NCBI GenBank assembly: GCA_020444265.1
Contig: JAHLLH010000015.1
Span: 1 to 57,982 of the forward strand
Length of the DNA: 57,982 bases
Direction: 5' to 3'
Source: a bacterium
GTDB taxonomy: Bacteria > Electryoneota > Electryoneia > Electryoneales > Electryoneaceae
Made by a program: the position numbers and the translations under genes. The notes below the pieces were generated by a model. The model was not told the DNA's origin. It saw only the letters and a list, made by a program, of their open reading frames with translations, and searched no databases. Shown piece after piece: positions 36,715-54,967 of this stretch (position 1 is its first letter; each line of letters begins with the position of its first letter).

Positions 36715-37120
36715 ACCTTATTGTGTTGTTAGTGGGAGTCTGAGCTATGAGGGTAACAAGCGCATCCAGAATTGCTGTAAACCTGGCTATCATCCTTCTG
36801 GTATTTACTGGTTCAGAATTGTCATTGGGTCAGATCCCCCTATCCGGAAATTTGTCTGGAACCCTTGAGGATACCGTTTATTCTGTTATCGACGATGTTT
36901 TTATCTCCTCTTCAGACACCTTATTGTGTTGTTAGTGGGAGTCTGAGCTATGAGGGTAACAAGCGCATCCAGAATTGCTGTAAACCTGGCTATCATCCTT
37001 CTGGTATTTACTGGTTCAGAATTGTCATTGGGTCAGATCCCCCTATCCGGAAATTTGTCGGGAACCCTTGAGGATACTGTTTACTCTGTTATTGATGATG
37101 TATATATCTCCTCTGCTGAT
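36715..37120 (+). repeat. 203-bp tandem direct repeat containing the 5' end of the beta-helix gene
   Basis: Unit 1 spans 36715-36917 and unit 2 starts at 36918. The first 142 bp of both (36715-36856 and 36918-37059) are identical, covering the leader, start codon and signal peptide. The next 61 bp differ at about ten places, mostly third codon positions (TCT/TCG, ACC/ACT, TAT/TAC, ATC/ATT, GAC/GAT). The sharp change from identity to divergence indicates a mosaic rather than a simple recent duplication. Confidence 0.9.
36747..36935 (+). pseudogene. Truncated duplicate of the beta-helix protein gene 5' end
   Basis: A 62-codon frame whose first 50 residues are identical to the signal peptide and start of the protein at 36950, with FISSSDTL in place of YISSADTL. 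It ends LLCC and a stop where it runs into the leader of the second repeat unit. The frame keeps its own ribosome-binding context, so a short signal-peptide fragment could still be made. I regard it as debris of the tandem duplication. Confidence 0.85.
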
Positions 37121-38623
37121 ACATTGTTCATCCTGCCTGGTGCTGAACTTCGATTTTCCGCAGATGTATTGTTTACAATTGATGGCCGTCTTGTCGCTGA
37201 AGGTGTTGAAGGTGATTCGGTTTTCTTCATTCCGGATGTGGAAGGAGAGAACTGGGGCGGGCTGGATTTCACGGACGATTCTCATTACAACTCCCACATC
37301 TATTACTGCCATATCGAAGGCTCCAACTCGAGTGGAATCTTCATCGACGACAGAAGCTCCGTCCACCTTAGACACTCCTTAATTGTGAACAACTCCAATG
37401 AAGGATCGTACCTGGGTGGTGGGATCTATTGGGTAAGCATCTGGACCAACCACACGTTGGAGTATTGTACGATTTCCAGTAATGAGAACAATGGACTATA
37501 CATCTCTGGTCAGGCGAACGTCATCCCAAGGAACTGTGTGATATCAGGAAACTCAGGCACCGGGTTGATTGTTCATGCCTATTTCCAGGAACTGTACGAC
37601 CTGGTAATTGAGGATAACTCTGGATCCGACTATGGGGGTGGACTGTTCGTTGGCGGAGGAGCCACCCGGATAGAGGATTGTGTCATCCGAAACAACACGT
37701 GCAGTCATTGGGGCGGCGGTGTGCGGAATGAAGGTTCTGTCATCATGGAACGCTGCGTCATCTCAGGGAACACAGCAGTAGATGGAATCGGGGGAATGGG
37801 GGGCGAAGGTGAGGGCGCAGATACCATAAGGTACAACTTGTTCGAAGGGAACGAAGCACCCTTCGCAGGGGCGCTAACACTTGATACAGATTCTGTGCTC
37901 GATCATTGTACGATCGTAAACAACACATCGAGTAATACGCAGGCTGGTGGTATGGGCGGAGTGGTTGTTGCATCCATTGCTGGTATAGTATCTAACTCTG
38001 TGTTTTATAACAATTATGGCTTATCAACAATCTATTCAGATTACAACATTGAGTTATACCTCACTTATAACGATTTCAATGATAATGAAATAAGTGAAAT
38101 ATGGATTAGTCACAATGTACCAGTTGATTTTGGCGAACTAACTAATACAAACAGCAATGGAGATCCTTGTGATCCTTTTCAAAACATCATCATGGACCCA
38201 CTGTTCACTGATGCCTCCAATCATGATTATTCGCTATTAGATGACTCGCCCTGCATCAATGCGGGTGATCCTGACTATCCATTGGATGCCAATCAAAGTT
38301 TTACCGATCTGGGAGCATTTCCCTTTGATGTACTAAACTCTTTCGAGAATCCGACTTGGCCAACGCAGCCATCCAACGGAATACTCGCCTATCCAAACCC
38401 GTTTAATTCGAGCATCACCATCGTTCCGCGAACATCTACGATGAAGATGAAAACAATCGTTGTCTATAATGTTCTCGGAAAACGAGTGTCGAATGTACCT
38501 GTGGCAAAGCACCAGACTGCCGTGAGTTTCGCGCCAAAAGGGTTAGCTGCAGGGGTTTATTTCATTGAGACGACAACAGATAACGGTGATATTTATAGAA
38601 ATAACATTATTTATCAGAAATAA
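36950..38623 (+). CDS. Secreted parallel beta-helix protein with T9SS-type C-terminus
   Basis: A 557-residue exported protein. It has a signal peptide (about 1-29, ending SLGQ), then roughly 350 residues of short repeated coils rich in CxISxN/NxxxGG patterns (EYCTISSNENNGLYISG, RNCVISGNSGTGLIV, EDCVIRNNTCSHWGGGV, ERCVISGNTAVDGIGGMGG), typical of right-handed parallel beta-helices (NosD/pectate-lyase-like). The C-terminal domain is AYPNPFNSSITIV, IVVYNVLGKRVSNV, GLAAGVYFIETT. The coding sequence is more AT-rich than its neighbours. It lacks recognisable lyase residues, so a surface or adhesion role is as likely as polysaccharide cleavage. Confidence 0.82.
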   Translation: MRVTSASRIAVNLAIILLVFTGSELSLGQIPLSGNLSGTLEDTVYSVIDDVYISSADTLFILPGAELRFSADVLFTIDGRLVAEGVEGDSVFFIPDVEGENWGGLDFTDDSHYNSHIYYCHIEGSNSSGIFIDDRSSVHLRHSLIVNNSNEGSYLGGGIYWVSIWTNHTLEYCTISSNENNGLYISGQANVIPRNCVISGNSGTGLIVHAYFQELYDLVIEDNSGSDYGGGLFVGGGATRIEDCVIRNNTCSHWGGGVRNEGSVIMERCVISGNTAVDGIGGMGGEGEGADTIRYNLFEGNEAPFAGALTLDTDSVLDHCTIVNNTSSNTQAGGMGGVVVASIAGIVSNSVFYNNYGLSTIYSDYNIELYLTYNDFNDNEISEIWISHNVPVDFGELTNTNSNGDPCDPFQNIIMDPLFTDASNHDYSLLDDSPCINAGDPDYPLDANQSFTDLGAFPFDVLNSFENPTWPTQPSNGILAYPNPFNSSITIVPRTSTMKMKTIVVYNVLGKRVSNVPVAKHQTAVSFAPKGLAAGVYFIETTTDNGDIYRNNIIYQK

Positions 38624-39593: not shown

Positions 39594-42545
39594 ATGGACC
39601 ATCTTTTACTCGTCAACAGCCTGCGTCCACATGCCGAATCCTCCCTGCTGAAAAGCTGGGAGGAGGAGCTTCAGCTCCTGGATTCGGCGATCTCCAGCTT
39701 CGAGTCGATTGCCGGGATCGATGGTACTGGTGAGGTCAGAAGTCAGGCGCAACGTGTTACCGAAGCGATCGACTGGTGCCGTACCACCATTCGTACCCTG
39801 GAAAACCGTCCTGCCGAAGCTGAGCTGACTAAGCTGGCCGAGGTTATGGACGCGGCTGTCGCTACCCTGCCTGAATCTCAGACGTTGCCGCTTTTGACGG
39901 AAAACCTCCAACGTCAGCAGAATGATTCGTTCCGTCAGGGTGCCTGGAAGCAGTGGACATCGGTTCGCTGGACAATGCAAACAGCACGACGCTCAACGGC
40001 GAATGGGGTCCGTCGCCTGTTCAAACGTGAACTGCCACAGGCCATCCAACACACGCGAACCTTTTCCCCGCAGCACTTCGCACGATTCCAACTGGTACAG
40101 CCCATTCTCAGTATCGTCCACGAATCCTGGCGTCTGCGCCGTGAACTACTTGATGATCTCTTTCATCCCCTTACCAGCGTTCTGGCAGGTGGAGCAGATT
40201 CCAGCGATGTGGAACTCCAATCTGTCCTGAGCGAAGCACGGGAGGCGCTCACTGCTGCGACAGAAACCTTCCGAACTCTGCTGGCCGAACGGCTTGATGC
40301 TCTACCAGAGCAGGTGGAAACCCTGTTCCAGTTTGCAGGAACAGGGGCTTACCCGGAAGGGAAGTATAGTCCGCAACGGTTCGCGCAGGGTCATAACCAA
40401 CTGCTGCGTACCGCATCACGCATCAGCAGCGAGTGGAGCAACTACCTGGTCGCGGTGCGCGACAGCACCATCAAGGATCTCGAGCTGACCCTGCTTCGTG
40501 TCCGCGCGCAGGATGCTGCGAGGAATGCGACCCAACGGCTGCAGGATCGTGTCGAATCGGATGCCAAAAAGGCGATTCAGTCTGCACGCGATACCATCGC
40601 CCATTCCCTCGAGATTTTCAGCGGTGAGGCGGTGAAGGATGAGGACACCTTACGCGCGCTGTTGCGCCGCGAGGGGCGTTCCCTGCTGAAACAGTTGCAG
40701 AAGGATGCGCTGCCTGCAATGATGGATGGGGTGTTGGCATCACGTTCCGACACCCTGCTTGCCGGAGTGCTCGCTTCGATCAAACGATCTACCGCCGATT
40801 TATCCCCGATTCACCGGATCGCACTGAACCGTGACGAGAACCAGCGTCCCCGAGTCCGTGTCGAAGAAATTGCCTTGCGTGAGCTGGTCGAGAAGGATTT
40901 ACTGCCCGACCTGGAGCGAGATCACCGTCAGGTGGTCGCGCACGCTGAAAAGGCACTGCAGGAGATGCTGCGCAAGATTTCCGAGACCGACCAGGTAGTC
41001 GAATTTAACCTCGAGGCGGCACTCAATGTGATGCGCGGCGAGGATGGTAGCGAAGCACTGGAAGAGGCTCGCAATGCGGCGGTGGAAGGGGTAGAGAGAG
41101 CCCTGCGGCAAGTGGATGACCTGCTCGAAATGGCCGACCTGTACGTGGCCGAGACTCGGGATGGCCTGGAGGAGGATGCGAGGGAGTTCGGGGAGGGAGT
41201 CGCCTCGCTCGCCGACAACCGTAAAATTGTCGACCTGAAACTCCAGTTGGCACGTGCCGCCGCTGAGCAGCAATTCCGTCAAACCCTGCGCAACATTCTG
41301 TCACGCATCCTCGGTGCGCTGCCCGGTCTCTTGCGAATTGTACGAGGAGCTCTAGGCTGGTTGCGGCAACGGTACACCCGAATCCGCAGCATCTCAGGGC
41401 TGGCGGATGAGTCGATTGCATCGCGTGAAGGAGTGGAACGGTTCCTGCGCGAGACAAATGGTGCGATCAATGCCTTGCCAACCGTTTATCGTCGTCTTTT
41501 CCGTCTCGAACCACTTACCGATGAGCGATTTTTTGCCGGACGGGACCATGAGTCAACGTCCCTTTCCAAAGCGGTCGAGTTGTGGAGGAAGGGACATTTT
41601 GCTGCGACGGTTGTCATTGGCGAGAAGGGCAGCGGACGGACCTCAATGCTGAACATGGCTCAGCAGAAATTGCTGAAAGGGATTTCCGTCAAACGAATGG
41701 AGATGACACGGGAACTGCGTGATGAATCCGCTCTGGTGGACGCCCTGCTAGCTCTCAATGGCGAGGGAGAAGCGACAACATTGGAGGAGCTGGGGATCGT
41801 TTTACTCGAGCAGTCCCCGCATGTCTTTATCCTCGAGGACGTGCAAAACCTCTTCCTCCGCCATGTCCACGGCTTCGCCCTGCTCGAACGGTTCCTGCAG
41901 CTTATTACCCGGACGGGTCGTCACCACCTCTTCCTCCTCACCTGCAGCCAGTACGCTTGGAACTACCTCGAACGCGTGATCCAGATGGACCGTTATTTCA
42001 ACCGCCTGATTCCGCTCGGTGGTTTTTCCGAGGAACGGTTGCGTGACATCCTGCTGAAACGGCACCGTGTCAGCGGGTATCGTCTCGAGTTTTCCCTGCC
42101 AGATTCGGTGGAGAAGTCGCGACGGTATAAAAAGGCTTCTACAGATGCGGTTCGTCACGAGATTCTTCTGGAAAACTTCCTCGAGCGGATCAATGACATT
42201 GCATCTGGTAACGTGACCGTGGCACTCTTTCTCTGGATGCGCGCGGTTCGACCTGCGGAAGGTGGCGTCCTCGATGTGGACACCGACTTCGAATTTGATC
42301 CGGCCTTCCTTGCCGGCCTACCCGCCGAAGAGATGTTCAGCCTGGCTGCGCTGATCCTGCACGAGGGATTGAGTATCACAGATCATGCCATCGTCTTTCA
42401 CCAGGTCGAAGAAAAAAGTCGTCTGATGCTGGGCCGTCTGACCAACCGTGGCCTCTTGCAGGTGGAAGAGGAGCTCTATCGTGTCCATCCCTTCCTCTAC
42501 CGTGCCGTCGTCCAGATGCTTCGCTCGAGGAACATGCTGCCATGA
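39594..42545 (+). CDS. Large coiled-coil P-loop ATPase with C-terminal winged helix, coupled to MscS
   Basis: A 983-residue protein of no recognised family. Residues 1-560 are almost entirely charged alpha-helix with heptad character (AAGARDSTIKDLELTLLRV-like stretches, many Leu/Ala/Glu), suggesting a long coiled coil. A more hydrophobic basic segment, ILGALPGLLRIVRGALGWL (about 570-590), might touch the membrane. The NTPase part follows: Walker A GEKGSGRTS (676-684) with Arg682 where Lys is usual, Walker B VFILEDV (744-750), a sensor-like strand HHLFLLTCSQ, and a C-terminal winged-helix-like region LAALILHEGLSITDHAIVF. This order is that of AAA+/STAND ATPases. It overlaps the MscS gene by ATGA, so the two are made together. 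Confidence 0.75.
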   Translation: MDHLLLVNSLRPHAESSLLKSWEEELQLLDSAISSFESIAGIDGTGEVRSQAQRVTEAIDWCRTTIRTLENRPAEAELTKLAEVMDAAVATLPESQTLPLLTENLQRQQNDSFRQGAWKQWTSVRWTMQTARRSTANGVRRLFKRELPQAIQHTRTFSPQHFARFQLVQPILSIVHESWRLRRELLDDLFHPLTSVLAGGADSSDVELQSVLSEAREALTAATETFRTLLAERLDALPEQVETLFQFAGTGAYPEGKYSPQRFAQGHNQLLRTASRISSEWSNYLVAVRDSTIKDLELTLLRVRAQDAARNATQRLQDRVESDAKKAIQSARDTIAHSLEIFSGEAVKDEDTLRALLRREGRSLLKQLQKDALPAMMDGVLASRSDTLLAGVLASIKRSTADLSPIHRIALNRDENQRPRVRVEEIALRELVEKDLLPDLERDHRQVVAHAEKALQEMLRKISETDQVVEFNLEAALNVMRGEDGSEALEEARNAAVEGVERALRQVDDLLEMADLYVAETRDGLEEDAREFGEGVASLADNRKIVDLKLQLARAAAEQQFRQTLRNILSRILGALPGLLRIVRGALGWLRQRYTRIRSISGLADESIASREGVERFLRETNGAINALPTVYRRLFRLEPLTDERFFAGRDHESTSLSKAVELWRKGHFAATVVIGEKGSGRTSMLNMAQQKLLKGISVKRMEMTRELRDESALVDALLALNGEGEATTLEELGIVLLEQSPHVFILEDVQNLFLRHVHGFALLERFLQLITRTGRHHLFLLTCSQYAWNYLERVIQMDRYFNRLIPLGGFSEERLRDILLKRHRVSGYRLEFSLPDSVEKSRRYKKASTDAVRHEILLENFLERINDIASGNVTVALFLWMRAVRPAEGGVLDVDTDFEFDPAFLAGLPAEEMFSLAALILHEGLSITDHAIVFHQVEEKSRLMLGRLTNRGLLQVEEELYRVHPFLYRAVVQMLRSRNMLP

Positions 42546-43543
42546 TGAGGAAAAATTCGACACTACGGCGGACGGTCCTCGTCCTTGTGATCTTGCTGCT
42601 GGCCGGTGTGACAGCGTGGGCGGTGGACAGCACCCAGGTTGTTTCACAGGCTGCGGATTCTGTTCAGACGGCTGTTGATTCGACCGCTTCCGTTCAACCG
42701 GACAGCGCCTCCGCCACCAGCCTGCGTGGTGCAATTGGTGAATCACGTCCTGAGATCAAGTGGTCTATTTCAGTCGGCAAGGTTTTCTGGGCGCTGGTCG
42801 TTTTCGGAATCATCTGGATTGTGCTCCACTACCTGACCCGTCTGCTTGAAACCATCGCGGAACGACGTACGAACTGGCGCTTGGGTATTAAAGCGGCCAT
42901 CCCAATTGTCCGGATCGGTACCTGGACCGCCGTCCTCTACCTGATCATCGCACGCATTTTCGCGCCTCCGATTGAAACCCTGCTCGCGTTGACCGCATCG
43001 GCGGGTATCGCGGTAGGCTTCGCGGCGCAGGACATCCTGAAGAACATTTTTGGCGGTATTACCATCCTCTTTGATCACCCCTTCCAGGTCGGCGACAAGA
43101 TCCAGGTGAAAGAGCATTATGGCGAGGTGGTGTCGATTGGCCTGCGTACGGTCCGGATTGTCACCCCGGATGATTCCCTCGTCTCGATCCCCAATGCCGA
43201 ACTGGTCAACCAGTCGGTCTCAAATGCCAATGCAGGCGAGAACAACTGCCAGGTCGTTGCCGAGTTTTACCTGCCACCGGATGTGGATGTGGAGCGGGTA
43301 AAAGCGATTGCGTACCGAGCGGCGGCGGTCTCGAGGTATGTCTACCTGAAAAAGCCGATCGCTGTTGTGATGAAGAATGTGATCGAAGAGGGACGCAGCC
43401 TCTACAAGCTGAGGCTCAAGGCCTATGTCCTCGACCTGCGCTACGAGTTCCCCTTCCAGAGTGACATGACCGAAGTCTTCCTGGCCACCTTGCTCGAGGA
43501 AGGTCTTGTGACTGCCGATCAACTGACTGGTATCTCCACCTGA
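42542..43543 (+). CDS. MscS-family mechanosensitive channel
   Basis: A 333-residue small-conductance channel. An N-terminal hydrophobic stretch (11-28) is a signal peptide or extra helix, followed by a Ser/Asp/Gln-rich periplasmic linker. Then come TM helices about 79-98, 120-140 and the pore helix TM3 (147-175) with TASAGIAVGFAAQDILKNIFGGI, the Ala/Gly-packed MscS pore. The beta domain FDHPFQVGDKIQV and SLVSIPNAELVNQSVSN and a cytoplasmic vestibule follow. It would release solutes under membrane tension. Start and stop of the two genes overlap, implying stoichiometric expression with the ATPase, which could gate or localise the channel. Confidence 0.93.
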   Translation: MMRKNSTLRRTVLVLVILLLAGVTAWAVDSTQVVSQAADSVQTAVDSTASVQPDSASATSLRGAIGESRPEIKWSISVGKVFWALVVFGIIWIVLHYLTRLLETIAERRTNWRLGIKAAIPIVRIGTWTAVLYLIIARIFAPPIETLLALTASAGIAVGFAAQDILKNIFGGITILFDHPFQVGDKIQVKEHYGEVVSIGLRTVRIVTPDDSLVSIPNAELVNQSVSNANAGENNCQVVAEFYLPPDVDVERVKAIAYRAAAVSRYVYLKKPIAVVMKNVIEEGRSLYKLRLKAYVLDLRYEFPFQSDMTEVFLATLLEEGLVTADQLTGIST

Positions 43544-44474: not shown

Positions 44475-45878
44475 TCACTTCACCAGCACTACCCGCTGCA
44501 CCTTTGCTTCGCCGCCCTCGAACGAGGCGTGGAGAAAATAGACACCCGTGCTGAGGTCGTTCGCGTTGAGTGAGAAGTGGTGGGTGCCTGGGGAATGGAT
44601 GCCGTCGGTCAGTTCGGCCACCTCGCGGCCCAGTATATCGAACAAGGTCAGGGTCAGGTCGCCCCGGGCGGGCAGCTCGACGGTGACCGTCGCTTGTGCG
44701 TTGAAGGGGTTGGGGGAGACAGGACTCAGCACAAAGCCGCCGGGTAGCATGGACCCGGTTTCCTGCTTGACCCCCGCTTGCGGCAGCAGGTTTTCGTAGA
44801 GCAGGATGGTGGCTTCGCTGCTCGAGGTGGCGGCAATGTCGAAGTCGCCATCGTTGTCGATGTCCCCGATCCCCAGTCCGAAAGCGTGGTTGAAGTTTTC
44901 CGAGAGGATCTGACGGGTGAACTCAGGTGTTTCACCGCCATCGTTTTCCCACCATGAGACCTCATCCCCACCATCGGCGGTTGCGACCAGGTCAACATCC
45001 CCATCCCAGTCGAAATCGGCCACATGGACTGTCGCCGCACCGAAGAAATAGCCGAGCGAATGCTGAGTCATCACATTGCTGCCCTCATTCTCCCACCAGG
45101 AGAGGTTGCTGCCGGACCAGGCGACGGTGGCGATATCCTTGTCGCCATCGCCATCGAGATCGGCGACCGCGACCCAATGGGCGGCGTTGTACCCTTCGAC
45201 CAGGGACATGAAACCGAACGATCCGCTGCCATCATTGGTCCAGAGGTAGACCGCATCCCCATCCTCACTGACCCCGATCAGGTCCTTGTCGCCATCATCA
45301 TCCCAGTCGAGAACATCCATCATCGTCCCGGATACGGCCCCTTCGAGCAGCGTGTGGGAGGTGAAGTTCTGATCGCCATCATTTTCCCACCAGAGGTACC
45401 CGGCAGCGAAGGTGGAAAGCGCGATGTCGAGGTCACCATCTCCATCGAGGTCGGCGACAGCAGGCGTGTGCGCCTGGGTCATCTCATCGGAGATGAGGTG
45501 GTTGGTGAACGATCCATCCTCCTGCTGCTCGAACCAACGGAAAGCATTCTGGTTGAAGGAGGCGCCGACCACATCCATGTCGCCATCCCCATCGAGGTCG
45601 GCGATGTCGATGTCACGGGCGTAGAAGCTCCACGAAATCGGGTGGCTTGGCCAGTCGCCGTTTTCCGTCTGCTCAAACCACGCCACACGCGATGCCGACC
45701 AGCCCGTTGAGACGAGATCCATGTCACCATCACCGTCCATGTCCGCGAATTTTACCGCGCAGGCGTTGTCCATGTTTTCGGTGACGGTATGGGTTTCAAA
45801 GGTGGATTCCGCGAACGTGCGGAGTGGTGCGGCTGCCAGGATGGCACACGCAAACATCAGGGCTACAAACTGCTTCAT
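44475..45878 (-). CDS. Secreted FG-GAP/VCBS-repeat protein with T9SS-type C-terminus
   Basis: A 467-residue exported protein starting at 45878 (GGGAG upstream), with signal peptide ending TFAES. Seven repeats of the calcium-binding type DxDGDGDxDIxxxxW follow (FADMDGDGDMDL, IADLDGDGDMDV, VADLDGDGDLDI, VLDWDDDGDKDL, VADLDGDGDKDI, VADFDWDGDVDL, IGDIDNDGDFDI), which should form a seven-bladed FG-GAP propeller. The end is VSPNPFNAQATVTV, LTLFDILGREVAEL, DLSTGVYFLHASF. Such proteins bind partners or surfaces outside the cell. No enzyme motif is evident. Confidence 0.87.
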   Translation of the reverse strand: MKQFVALMFACAILAAAPLRTFAESTFETHTVTENMDNACAVKFADMDGDGDMDLVSTGWSASRVAWFEQTENGDWPSHPISWSFYARDIDIADLDGDGDMDVVGASFNQNAFRWFEQQEDGSFTNHLISDEMTQAHTPAVADLDGDGDLDIALSTFAAGYLWWENDGDQNFTSHTLLEGAVSGTMMDVLDWDDDGDKDLIGVSEDGDAVYLWTNDGSGSFGFMSLVEGYNAAHWVAVADLDGDGDKDIATVAWSGSNLSWWENEGSNVMTQHSLGYFFGAATVHVADFDWDGDVDLVATADGGDEVSWWENDGGETPEFTRQILSENFNHAFGLGIGDIDNDGDFDIAATSSSEATILLYENLLPQAGVKQETGSMLPGGFVLSPVSPNPFNAQATVTVELPARGDLTLTLFDILGREVAELTDGIHSPGTHHFSLNANDLSTGVYFLHASFEGGEAKVQRVVLVK

Positions 45879-46278
45879 TCTGGTCTCCCTCGGGAGGGGG
45901 GGGACGTCCACGCGGATCCACAACTACCGTGAGATGTCGCGTCCAAGGAAACGTCCCGAGGTCAACCGGCTCCGCCTCTAACATAGAGAGTCTCTATTCA
46001 TAGTACAAACAAGGGATTTCGAAAAGTGGATAAAAGTCATGACTGATCAGTCAAATCAGCCCATTTCGTCAGTCTGAACCATCTTTGTTCGGGAAATCTA
46101 ATACTTTAGGCGAGGCTCTAAGTCTTGACTTAACTTCATAGCAGCCGTAAATAAAATACGTTCTACTTGTGTTCTAAATTGTATGAAAACTAGTCATTTT
46201 TAGTTTGGTTGGAATGATAGTTCTGGCATCCAGGTCGCTGGCTGCTTGCACGGACCACTTTTTGATCGTCTAGGGAAT
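45879..46278. other. Divergent intergenic region between two secreted-protein genes
   Basis: About 400 bp, distinctly AT-rich from 45985, without a gene. It must hold promoters for both the FG-GAP protein (minus) and the protein starting at 46279 (plus); the plus-strand promoter is proposed at 46125-46153. Nothing else structured is seen. Confidence 0.5.
46125..46153 (+). promoter_or_regulatory. Candidate sigma-70 promoter
   Basis: TTGACT (46125-46130), 17-bp spacer, TAAATA (46148-46153); the transcription start would fall near 46160, about 120 nt before the ATG at 46279. Confidence 0.55.
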
Positions 46279-47943
46279 ATGACTATGCCAGCATGCTTCA
46301 GGCCATTCCAGCGATTGTTTATCCTCGTTGTGTTCTGCTGGATTGGTACGACTGCTACGGCATATTCGCAGGAGCGCTGGTATACCCATCCGGATTCTGT
46401 TGAGAATTTACCGGTTTATCCGTATCACGGAATGCAGATTATTGCCGACCGTCATGGCGGGTTCTACCTCAAGACGCCTTGGCCTTTCTCATTTCTTCCC
46501 TACATCCTCTACCATTTCGATGAAAATGGTGCCTCGACGTTCCCCGATCCGACCTATGTCTGGTGCTACCCGTACGAAAACGAGATAGGCGGATATCCAC
46601 GAAGTCTTTTCGCCCTTGATGATGGTTCACTCTTCTACTCGATGCTGATCCACAACGGACTAGAAGATCAATATGAAACCCACCTGATGCGGGTCGATCA
46701 GGAAGGGAACCAGCTCTGGGGACCGTCAGGTGTTGCTGAATCAGGGGATTGGCGTTATCAGGAAATCGCTCGTGCGACCGATAATTCGATCTGGGCACTT
46801 CGTTATGTGAGTGCTGATGTAGTTGAGGATATTCGGTATGAGTTGGTTCAATATGACTATCAGGGAAATCAGCTCCACGAAGATCCAGCTTGGGTTGTGA
46901 ATTCACGTGATCAAGGTTATGTCAGAAGCGCATTCAAGCTGGTCGATGATGAGAATGGTGGCGTTTACGTTTGTGGTACATGGCGGAGAGATAATGATCA
47001 TGGATTTTGTATAAACCACATCGATGCTAACGGTACGATAGCCGACACATCAGGACTGCGCTACTTTGAATATTTGATCGGGGGTGAGGGGGCCGATTAT
47101 TGGATTGGGCCCAACGGAGATTTATTTGGCGCGAATTCGCTCCGGATGATTAGGTTAACACGCGAACTTGAACTGGTCTGGCCGGAAGGCGCGCGCCCAC
47201 TTCCTTGTATCGTCGAGAACCCCAGTAGTACTGTAACGAAGTTCAGCCAGGAAAATGGGATATTTTGGACAAAGGTTCAACTTGACAACCTTGTCTGGTG
47301 GATGGCGTGTTATACCCCTGAGGGCGAATTGCTAACCGAATTCCCAATCTCACCATGCGATTTTCATGTTGCAGAAGATGGTCGGTTGTGGGCAATTATT
47401 GGGGAAGAATCAGGGCTTGAAGTACGATACAAGGCCTTTGTATACGCGCAAGACAGTGAAGGTACCCCTCAGGATTCAGTTTTCCTCTACGATCAGCCGG
47501 AGTCCACAACGTCCATTGGTGCCCTTTGCACGGACAATCGAAACGGTCTCGAATTCGCGTTAAGTACAACCTATGGTCCATCTGGTGGATTGGTTGGTCG
47601 AGTTACCTCCGATGGCTATTTGGGATTCTCGCCCAGCGAAACTGGAATTTCCGCTGAAAATCATCCCCAACCGCAGATGTGCCAACTTTTATCAAACTTC
47701 CATCCTAACCCTACGAACGGCGCAGTCCGCTTTCAGCTAGCCGGTAGATCAGAATATACAATCAGTGTTTACAATATTTTAGGCAAGAGAATCTTGCGCC
47801 AATCGTACCGGGGTCGTCAAGATGTAAATGAGGTCTCACTAGATCTTGCAGCTTTGAATCTCAGTTCAGGGAGATACTTCGTGAGGGTTGTCGATAATAA
47901 ACGATCAAAAGTTGATGTTATCCATTTTCAGTATTTGAAATAA
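46279..47943 (+). CDS. Secreted hypothetical protein with T9SS-type C-terminus
   Basis: A 554-residue exported protein. ATG 46279, five bases after AGGGA, gives a signal peptide ending AYSQERW. The body of about 440 residues has repeats of the form GxxLW/GNQLWGPSG, YQGNQLHEDPAW and TPEGELLTEFP with aromatic residues, suggesting a beta-propeller of a type I cannot name. C-terminus: SNFHPNPTNGAVRF, ISVYNILGKRILRQ, LSSGRYFVRVVD. The sequence is AT-rich compared with the housekeeping genes. Function unknown. Confidence 0.78.
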   Translation: MTMPACFRPFQRLFILVVFCWIGTTATAYSQERWYTHPDSVENLPVYPYHGMQIIADRHGGFYLKTPWPFSFLPYILYHFDENGASTFPDPTYVWCYPYENEIGGYPRSLFALDDGSLFYSMLIHNGLEDQYETHLMRVDQEGNQLWGPSGVAESGDWRYQEIARATDNSIWALRYVSADVVEDIRYELVQYDYQGNQLHEDPAWVVNSRDQGYVRSAFKLVDDENGGVYVCGTWRRDNDHGFCINHIDANGTIADTSGLRYFEYLIGGEGADYWIGPNGDLFGANSLRMIRLTRELELVWPEGARPLPCIVENPSSTVTKFSQENGIFWTKVQLDNLVWWMACYTPEGELLTEFPISPCDFHVAEDGRLWAIIGEESGLEVRYKAFVYAQDSEGTPQDSVFLYDQPESTTSIGALCTDNRNGLEFALSTTYGPSGGLVGRVTSDGYLGFSPSETGISAENHPQPQMCQLLSNFHPNPTNGAVRFQLAGRSEYTISVYNILGKRILRQSYRGRQDVNEVSLDLAALNLSSGRYFVRVVDNKRSKVDVIHFQYLK

Positions 47944-52606: not shown

Positions 52607-54967
52607 ATGAGAATCAGCAGGCTGATTGTCGCATGTCTCCTCTTTGTCATTATCCCCGCCTCATTCGGATGGGTGCATGTCCCATCTGGTACGGTCAATG
52701 CCTCGACTTTTGTCTGTAGCGACGACGAATCACGGATTGTGATGGGGGTCTCGGGGGGTGGCTACTGGATCACACAGGATGGGGGACAGACATGGGAGAT
52801 GTTGAACCCTTGGTCGCCTGCCCCGGTGAATCTCTATGACAGCATGGTCGCTGTTGACAGCGCGTGTGATACGGTCTATGTGGGGGCCGAATGCACGATG
52901 GATCCCGACAAAATCTTGTCCTATACCTTTAATGGTGGTGCAGATTGGGAGGTCATGCAGGATCAATCAGGCCTGCCAATTTTTCCGAATATTGAGCGCA
53001 TCGTGGTGGTGGATTGGAGCAACCATTCCCGTATCTGGTGTTTTCGTTCCAATTACATGATACAATCTGAAAATGCCGGTATTGACTGGAGTTACAATGT
53101 AGTAGACTCCATCAATTATGGTATCGGAAGTTTTTTTCAGGATCAGGATGATCCGTCAGTCATCTGGGCGGCAGGCTATTATTCGTTCTTGCCCATGCAC
53201 GTCGATGAACCCACCAACCGCTTTATTCGAAAAAGTGAAGATTATGGCCAGACCTGGTCCAGTCCGCTGAATCTTGACAATCTGGTCGATGATACTCAAC
53301 CATCCGGCGGCAGCGCCCGGTGTATGATCAAATTGTCCAATGGTGATTTGTTGGCGGGTGGTTTTCACTACCTCGATGGTGAAACGAACACACAGGAACA
53401 GCTGTTCCGAAGCACAGATGGGGGACTGACGGGAGAGTGGTTCAATGGGAACCTCCCAGATGGTTTTTTCCCCGAGCAGCTGATCGAAGACCCGCAACAG
53501 CCTGGAACAGTTTTTCTGTCCGGCGGTCTCATCTACGGCCTCTACCGGTCCACTGACTATGGCGCAACGTTTAACCGTGTTGCCAATGGCCTGCCAACCG
53601 GCCCCCTCACAGTGGTCAATATCAGTAAAAACGAGCACAACGGTACCGTCTATTTGAGTCTTCATGGCTGGGGTGTGTACGCCACGTCCGACGGGGGTGA
53701 AACCTGGCGCGAGTTGCCGAAACCACCCATCGGGAGTCGTGCAACGATAAACGTCTTCTCCGATTGTATCCAGCTTCGACATAGCGGGTACATCTACAAG
53801 CGGTATGGTTTTGCAACGGAATCTTGGGATCAGCTCTCGTTCCCCTCTTTTGATCCCTACCTGCCCCTCGTTTTCCCCATCACCTTTTCTGACGATCAGA
53901 CTATAGTGGTGGGTACACGTCTCTTCAATTCAGAGAATTCCGACGAATTGAGGATCGCAACGTTGAGGAGTGACGATCAGGGTGAAACCTGGCAGGAAAT
54001 CGGGGAACGTTTCACGAGGCAGACTGCACATTATTCGGCCTGGCAAGGTGAAACTGAGTCCCGTTTGGTCACAGTCACCGCAACGGATGTCGCTGATCTC
54101 TCCCAGGTATGTGTGTCGACCGATACGGGGAGGACCTGGACCTATGGAGCGGAGATTCAATCCGCACCCGGACGTCTGCCCGGCATCCATCAGAGTGAGA
54201 ATTATATCTACGCAGTCGTCCAGGTATCTCCCCAGGAAGGGAGTATTTATCGGTCCGCAGACGGTGGAATGACATTCGAAAACATGGATTTTCCGGACAG
54301 TCCGAATTTGCTGACTGTGCTGACCGGAGATCGTCTCGCAGTCAATGCCTACATCGACAATGATTTGAAGAAGGTCTACTATTATGACGGCGATTCCTGG
54401 GAATTGAGCAATCCATCGGTCAGTATGAATAGCGAAATCGTACAAGCCTCAGATGATCCCGAAAGATGGGTGGCAACACATATTAATGGGTGGGGGGAGA
54501 GCTCACTTCTGATCAGTGAAAACCATGGTCAAACCTGGGTGAGCCGTGACCTCGAGATTCCCTACGCAGAGTTCAAACCATTTTTGGGTACATTGTCAAG
54601 TGATCCCTGGAGGGAAAGGATCTGGGTATCGACTGGGATCGGACTCTGCTACCTGCCGACTTCGGACTTAGCTGTTGACGATGGACCGCTGAACCTGCTT
54701 CCGCTCGCGCACACTGTTCTGAGTAATTTCCCCAACCCATTCAACCAGACGACCAGCATTACCTACACCTTGCGACAGGCAGGCAGAATGGAGTTGACCC
54801 TGTATGATATGCAGGGCCGTTTGATTCGAACAATCGACACTGGCTTTCGTGAAGCTGGGTTTTATACCCATTCGCTTACAATGAATGATCTGGCCTCGGG
54901 GACGTACTTTCTTCGACTTGTTGCAAATGGAGATGTGGTAAACAGGAAGATCACCCTGCTGAAATGA
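52607..54967 (+). CDS. Secreted Asp-box propeller protein with T9SS-type C-terminus
   Basis: A 786-residue exported protein: signal peptide (about 1-21), then at least eleven Asp-box or near Asp-box motifs (ITQDGGQTW, YTFNGGADW, KSEDYGQTW, RSTDYGATF, ATSDGGETW, RSDDQGETW, VSTDTGRTW, RSADGGMTF, ISENHGQTW), indicating one or two sortilin/VPS10-like beta-propellers. The last 80 residues are SNFPNPFNQTTSITYT, LTLYDMQGRLIRTI, LASGTYFLRLV. It resembles the protein at 8349-10634. The gene lies within the segment bounded by the sdhB-end repeats. Confidence 0.83.
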   Translation: MRISRLIVACLLFVIIPASFGWVHVPSGTVNASTFVCSDDESRIVMGVSGGGYWITQDGGQTWEMLNPWSPAPVNLYDSMVAVDSACDTVYVGAECTMDPDKILSYTFNGGADWEVMQDQSGLPIFPNIERIVVVDWSNHSRIWCFRSNYMIQSENAGIDWSYNVVDSINYGIGSFFQDQDDPSVIWAAGYYSFLPMHVDEPTNRFIRKSEDYGQTWSSPLNLDNLVDDTQPSGGSARCMIKLSNGDLLAGGFHYLDGETNTQEQLFRSTDGGLTGEWFNGNLPDGFFPEQLIEDPQQPGTVFLSGGLIYGLYRSTDYGATFNRVANGLPTGPLTVVNISKNEHNGTVYLSLHGWGVYATSDGGETWRELPKPPIGSRATINVFSDCIQLRHSGYIYKRYGFATESWDQLSFPSFDPYLPLVFPITFSDDQTIVVGTRLFNSENSDELRIATLRSDDQGETWQEIGERFTRQTAHYSAWQGETESRLVTVTATDVADLSQVCVSTDTGRTWTYGAEIQSAPGRLPGIHQSENYIYAVVQVSPQEGSIYRSADGGMTFENMDFPDSPNLLTVLTGDRLAVNAYIDNDLKKVYYYDGDSWELSNPSVSMNSEIVQASDDPERWVATHINGWGESSLLISENHGQTWVSRDLEIPYAEFKPFLGTLSSDPWRERIWVSTGIGLCYLPTSDLAVDDGPLNLLPLAHTVLSNFPNPFNQTTSITYTLRQAGRMELTLYDMQGRLIRTIDTGFREAGFYTHSLTMNDLASGTYFLRLVANGDVVNRKITLLK

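Follow-up and report, generated by a model that had tools for sequence, protein, structure and literature searches.

A stalk-AAA+ protein with a dedicated MscS-type partner is probably a bacterial regulator that couples salt release to membrane stretch

Introduction

Channels of the MscS family are regarded as self-sufficient tension valves. Why, then, should one of them be encoded in overlap with a large ATPase-like protein? The question is raised by a stretch of 57,982 nucleotides (the window; contig JAHLLH010000015.1 of assembly GCA_020444265.1) from a bacterium of the Electryoneota, in which the gene for a 983-residue protein, P0001, runs into that of an MscS protein, P0002. A preliminary description of this DNA had confined itself to the letters and proposed a channel under ATP or ligand control, serving either osmotic control or, by analogy, a bacterial conflict system. 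The analysis presented here suggests that P0001 is probably a regulator that links membrane stretch to salt release together with a dedicated MscS-type protein. The individual parts of this module are known folds, while their combination appears to be new. A search of open-access full-text literature found no description of the module or of the module-MscS pair, and Pfam, NCBIfam and PADLOC contain no family for it, which agrees with the earlier impression that the large protein belonged to no described family. To our knowledge, no known system joins an MscS lineage, a stalk-AAA+ module and transporters.

The pair consists of the following features in the window:

39594..42545 (+): open reading frame (ORF) of the module gene, encoding P0001, 983 aa, a protein of helical stalk, degenerate AAA+ domain and winged helix, supported by homologues with conserved length and order
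42542..43543 (+): ORF of the partner gene, encoding P0002, an MscS-family channel of 333 aa, supported by Pfam MS_channel_2nd (E 1e-22) and its place in the partner clade
42542..42545 (+): ATGA stop/start overlap of the two genes, read from the sequence, with a gap of -4 that recurs in the family

The ATGA overlap, already described for this locus, was confirmed and likely couples the translation of both proteins.

Conservation of the module-MscS pairing

Among 39 genomes of the window's own phylum, full-length relatives of P0001 were found that share about 30% identity with it, and wherever the contig continues each is followed by an MscS gene whose product is 57-58% identical to P0002. A scan of 84,980 genomes for the module, with neighbours ignored, returned 52 loci, nearly all with an MscS gene abutting or overlapping the module, from Bacteroidota, Ignavibacteriota, Balneolota, KSB1, Calditrichota, Gemmatimonadota, Nitrospirota, Pseudomonadota, Bdellovibrionota, Myxococcota and others. 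In large phylum samples few candidates per genome were scored, so the counts are lower bounds: the module occurs in at least 72 of 395 genomes from the phylum of a Fulvivirga record, at least 69 of 188 from that of a Deltaproteobacteria/Myxococcota record, at least 7 of 82 from that of a KSB1 record and at least 3 of 395 from that of a 'Proteobacteria' record, one of the latter being a weak AAA match.

Clustering at 90% identity left 160 module loci, five of which are cut by contig ends. Among the 155 with readable neighbourhoods, a same-strand MscS-like gene stands beside the module in 153, across at least ten phyla. As these genomes carry 3-8 MscS genes each, chance adjacency would be expected in less than about 0.5% of cases. 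The preliminary description had held that homologues found mostly without an MscS neighbour would speak against a meaningful pairing; the neighbourhood survey found the opposite. The MscS gene mostly lies downstream of the module and in about 15 clusters upstream, and the adjacency persists at roughly 20-30% identity despite this varying order. At one locus (L240) the MscS gene lies 2.1 kb from the module, while at the other paired loci the two genes touch or overlap when over-long ORF starts are taken into account. Large module/MscS overlaps, as at L064, L139, L252 and others, were dismissed as artefacts: the longest ORF had been extended too far, in most cases in a GC-rich genome.

Fusions of the module to ion transporters

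Two kinds of transporter are fused to the module. In at least 22 relatives the full module (about 1000 aa) stands behind an N-terminal antiporter of the cation/proton antiporter (CPA) type, giving about 1500 aa in total, with the antiporter part matching Na_H_Exchanger (E 7e-19). In at least eight others the module forms the C-terminus of an SLC12 transporter of the K-Cl type, about 1700 aa in total, which matches AA_permease (E 1e-44) and the K-Cl cotransporter model TIGR00930 (404 bits, below the curated cut-off). The table of the neighbourhood survey lists five SLC12 fusions, since partial duplicates of three loci are labelled plain in it. Representative fusions are:

L060:489-5123; L133:3986-8491(-); L232:4352-9055; L234:3654-8387: CPA-antiporter-module fusions
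L095:5896-11046(-); L096:5127-10250; L097:3733-8892; L098:5444-10591(-): SLC12-module fusions

An MscS-like gene accompanies all SLC12 fusions and all but two of the antiporter fusions, and in the four fusions whose partner was checked, the MscS-like protein exceeds the PF00924 cut-off (E 3e-12, 1e-9, 2e-18 and 3e-14). The proteins that follow the SLC12 fusions L095-L098 are small (214-256 aa) with a degenerate third transmembrane helix (TM3). At the loci sampled from the G065 phylum, a separate antiporter gene of about 450-500 aa often lies directly upstream, giving operons of antiporter, antiporter-module fusion and MscS-like protein. A divergent, split version in G063 encodes a 793-aa ATPase, an MscS-like protein and an antiporter in one operon, the MscS-like match being just under the cut-off at 19.0 bits. 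No KTN/RCK (TrkA_N) domain was found by Pfam in P0001 or in its CPA-fused relatives. Attachment of the module to both antiporters and K-Cl cotransporters strengthens the osmotic or ion-control reading that had been offered for the window pair.

A dedicated lineage of MscS partners

The beta-domain of P0002 matches PF00924 with 80.4 bits against a cut-off of 20.2, and hydropathy reveals three transmembrane-like segments behind a signal-peptide-like N-terminal one, in line with the three-helix MscS channel described before. Pfam detects no cyclic-nucleotide-binding domain in P0002. Its parts are:

42542..42622 (+): hydrophobic N-terminal segment, putatively signal-peptide-like (hydropathy segment 5-34)
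42977..43072 (+): TM3 pore helix, Gly/Ala-rich (TLLALTASAGIAVGFAAQDILKNIFGGITILF), from alignment to MscS-family structures and A+G+S content
43031..43231 (+): MscS beta-domain PF00924, from Pfam

The Gly/Ala-rich character of TM3 in P0002 is seen in alignment with MscS-family PDB chains (A+G+S 0.385 in type ia). The A+G+S fraction of TM3 is 0.39 and 0.44 in plain-type partners, versus 0.22 and 0.27 in partners of transporter-fused types, which have also lost the QDILKNIFGG motif. This suggests that the partners of the fused types may not form a standard pore.

In a tree of 79 rows, comprising partner MscS proteins and 29 other MscS proteins from the same genomes, a single branch (SH-aLRT 97) separates all partners from 28 of the 29 others. 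The statement that MscS channels need no ATPase is right for MscS in general, although the partner here belongs to a distinct lineage. The single exception, L202, sits on a long branch and comes from G061, the genome of the partnerless fusion L060. Plain-type partners share about 48 conserved positions at which other MscS proteins differ; these cluster in the cytosolic TM1-TM2 loop, at the base of TM3 and in the vestibule, and are candidate docking sites for the module. Partner-specific residues include R113, K117, P121, K186, E195, D211, K271 and K293.

Two unusual MscS-type proteins were also observed. In G061, where the CPA-module fusion L060 lacks an MscS neighbour, L202 / L203:5528-6370 is a lone MscS of the partner lineage; as a guess, it may be the displaced partner of this fusion. 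A 177-aa MscS-like protein (L058:3134-3667) has just a short membrane region N-terminal to its beta-domain and adjoins a full-length module (L058:129-3137), which makes it a candidate non-pore partner.

Domains and ATPase motifs of the module

Sequence searches with P0001 gave little: a sub-threshold Pfam match to AAA_16 alone (E 4e-4, 21.3 bits against a cut-off of 32.6), nothing usable in NCBIfam or PADLOC, and only sub-threshold AAA matches in the PDB. An AlphaFold2 (AF2) model built on 51 natural relatives (mean predicted local distance difference test score, pLDDT, 87.5; predicted template modelling score, pTM, 0.56) shows helices up to about residue 600, followed by an AAA+ fold and a winged helix:

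39594..41408 (+): long helical stalk or bundle, residues 1-605, without a Pfam family (AF2 of this part alone, pLDDT 89.3, pTM 0.79)
41286..41369 (+): cationic amphipathic segment, residues 565-592 (hydrophobic moment about 0.6; hydropathy gives no transmembrane segment)
41469..42308 (+): AAA+ domain of ORC/Cdc6/TnsC/STAND type, residues 626-905 (VIA-align; AAA_22/AAA_16 in relatives)
41619..41642 (+): Walker A GEKGSGRT, residues 676-683, with Arg682 (codon 41637-41639) in place of Lys (sequence)
41835..41840 (+): Walker B, Glu748-Asp749 where Asp-Glu is expected (sequence and alignment)
42324..42542 (+): winged-helix-like C-terminal domain, residues 911-983 (AF2 secondary structure)

The AAA+ domain aligns with chain G of the Drosophila origin recognition complex (ORC; 7jgr_G) at a VIA-align Z of 16.6 (242 residues aligned, 3.2 A) and with 1w5t_A at Z 16.0 (284 residues, 8.9 A), and the alignments to 1w5t, 2qen and TnsC extend to residues 977-983, so that the winged helix is included. 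Pfam recognises AAA_22 in 39 and AAA_16 in 37 of 51 relatives. The AAA+/STAND-like ATPase with a winged helix, as first described, is borne out by structure alignment. The possible membrane-contacting helix at residues 565-592 does exist and is cationic and amphipathic, but hydropathy (whole-protein KD19 maximum 1.59) does not make it transmembrane; contact with the membrane is possible. The stalk carries a Pfam family in none of 51 members, and Foldseek found no match for it in the PDB at E<=0.001. VIA-align returned designed bundles of a generic kind (Z 14) as well as stalks of the dynamin type (5owv, with 241 aligned residues at Z 11.5 and 4.8 A); these scores are within the range of common helical arrangements, and no homology of the stalk is therefore claimed. 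In eight genomes only the AAA+/winged-helix half (about 300-430 aa) occurs with an MscS gene and without the stalk, for example at L157:4430-5716(-), L164:5085-6386 and L160:4037-4933(-). Such natural truncations could reveal what the stalk is for.

P0001 lacks both the Walker A Lys and the Walker B Asp-Glu of active ATPases, and this degeneration extends through the family. In an alignment of 76 members, the catalytic Walker B Glu is kept in one (L064) and missing in 75. Walker A retains its Lys in 28 of 51 plain types with MscS downstream, in 2 of 11 types with MscS upstream and in all 13 transporter-fused types, and elsewhere has R, V, I, L, N, A, M or T at this position; the module tree requires at least nine switches between Lys and not-Lys. 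Arg823, which resembles Sensor 2, and the second P-loop Gly are invariant in the same alignment. With the catalytic Glu mostly missing and the Lys often lost, hydrolysis is unlikely in most members. From established AAA+ biochemistry, nucleotide binding is likely in the transporter-fused types and uncertain in the others. Arg682 had been read as a hint of nucleotide sensing rather than fast turnover. It is indeed one case of a repeated loss of Lys, but as the catalytic Glu is nearly always missing, the domain has more likely lost hydrolysis than kept a slow turnover.

Genomic context in the window

Both genes show ordinary coding bias, like adjoining genes (GC at third codon positions 0.64 for P0001 and 0.69 for P0002). 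A scan for promoters and terminators found no terminator, and its promoter matches were close to chance. A gene for a DNA alkylation repair enzyme (PF08713; 43646-44335) lies 102 bp downstream of the MscS gene. Four window proteins (44475-45923(-), 36950-38623, 46246-47943 and 52607-54967) end in a Por_Secre_tail sorting domain of the type IX secretion system, some with FG-GAP, beta-helix or BNR repeats as well, and the organism probably exports proteins by this system.

Proposed function and alternatives

The types have three elements in common: a membrane efflux device (an MscS pore, a cation/proton antiporter or a K-Cl cotransporter), an MscS-family protein of the dedicated lineage, and the module of stalk and AAA+ domain. 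On balance, we favour P0001 as the hydrolysis-poor regulatory subunit of a two-gene osmotic or ion-efflux unit that docks on its own MscS lineage. The cytosolic P0001, whose helical stalk would carry the degenerate ORC/STAND-like AAA+ domain and winged helix, would bind this MscS protein and set the timing of efflux. The module would read tension via its MscS-like partner, while the AAA+ domain might add a reading of nucleotide state or crowding. In the plain type of the window, the output is probably the MscS channel itself, in which the pore helix is kept; membrane tension would gate it, and the state of the module (nucleotide-bound or not, or crowding) would tune it. In the fused types, the output would be the K+/H+-type antiporter or K-Cl cotransporter joined to the module, and the MscS-like partner would probably act mainly as a tension sensor or scaffold. 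A more tentative extension, which we consider possible rather than probable, is a general osmosensing cassette in which MscS-family proteins sense tension and use the stalk module with its pseudo-AAA+ domain to switch several efflux devices, namely their own pore, K+/H+ antiporters and K-Cl cotransporters, with the MscS-like protein of the transporter types as a non-conducting mechanosensor. If true, this would be a shared regulator that ties membrane stretch to both the energy state of the cell and ion efflux, and could offer a bacterial model for the volume control of cation-chloride cotransporters (CCC).

Several points weigh against the proposed regulatory subunit. Members with V, I, L, A or N in Walker A may no longer bind nucleotide; the antiporter fusions L060 and L236 have no MscS neighbour; the pore loss suggested for fused-type partners is read solely from TM3 composition; the ion and the direction of transport of the antiporters are assumed from their family; and the low overall pTM makes domain placement in the P0001 model uncertain.

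Adjacency of a STAND/ORC-like ATPase to a membrane pore, and the presence of several paralogues in the sample from the G065 phylum (where one record is from Myxococcota), could also fit an anti-phage system, with the NTPase as the infection sensor and the MscS pore, once opened by it, as the lethal effector. This parallel, drawn in the preliminary description, found no support and is very improbable: PADLOC has no match for P0001 and only weak ones for 51 relatives, no defence models occur among the ten proteins neighbouring the window pair, phages and viral contigs gave no match and plasmids two weak ones to the ATPase domain. Moreover, the partner is one fixed MscS lineage rather than a set of exchangeable effectors, the catalytic Glu is lost, and fusion to secondary transporters suits ion homeostasis. 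About equally improbable is a DNA-binding regulator controlling transcription of the channel operon, as suggested by the resemblance to ORC/Cdc6 and to MarR-like winged helices, since a transcription factor would not usually be fused to membrane transporters, carry a conserved stalk of 600 aa or be linked almost without exception to a membrane partner.

Alternatively, the module could be an assembly or insertion factor that builds or places the MscS-family oligomer and does not regulate its gate. AAA+ proteins often remodel complexes, and strict adjacency with ATGA coupling would suit co-assembly; remodelling AAA+ proteins need hydrolysis, however, for which the motifs are degenerate here, and a permanent covalent fusion to transporters better fits a stable subunit, so that we regard such a role as unlikely. 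The pair might also reflect genomic linkage only, with two osmoregulation genes co-transcribed but coupled neither physically nor through signalling, as both plausibly serve the same stress. Persistence of the adjacency at low identity and over many phyla in either gene order, together with a dedicated partner lineage with its own conserved cytosolic residues, leaves this rather improbable.

Comparison with known systems

Release of K+ or osmolytes in response to stress is known for MscS, for Kef-type antiporters and for K-Cl cotransporters (KCC). Known MscS members gate by tension, with modulation by K+ or crowding in some. Like the superfamily (MscS, MscK, MscM, YnaI), P0002 has the TM2-TM3-beta-domain core and a Gly/Ala-rich TM3, but it differs in its dedicated lineage, its partner-specific residues and its obligate-looking soluble partner. 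Bacterial cyclic-nucleotide-gated (bCNG) channels carry a fused cyclic-nucleotide domain and likewise tie an MscS pore to a nucleotide-binding regulator, whereas the regulator here is a separate 1000-aa AAA+ protein. In Kef systems (KTN/RCK, KefF/KefG), a cytosolic nucleotide-binding module, the KTN domain that binds AMP/NADH, similarly controls CPA2 K+ efflux with an ancillary subunit (PMC10224563); here an unrelated helical-stalk AAA+ module replaces KTN and the ancillary subunit is MscS-like. KCC proteins share the CCC core with the SLC12 fusions and have their volume-linked K-Cl efflux regulated at the C-terminus, where the domain of human KCC binds ATP/ADP (PMC8280820). The bacterial fusions differ in carrying an AAA+ module of 1000 aa and in being followed by an MscS-like gene. 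With ORC/Cdc6, TnsC and STAND proteins, finally, the module shares the AAA+ fold with a winged helix, the GR-x-x-E box and, in P0001, the Sensor-2-like Arg823, but it is set apart by the missing catalytic Glu, the frequent loss of the Walker A Lys, its long N-terminal stalk and its membrane-transport partners.

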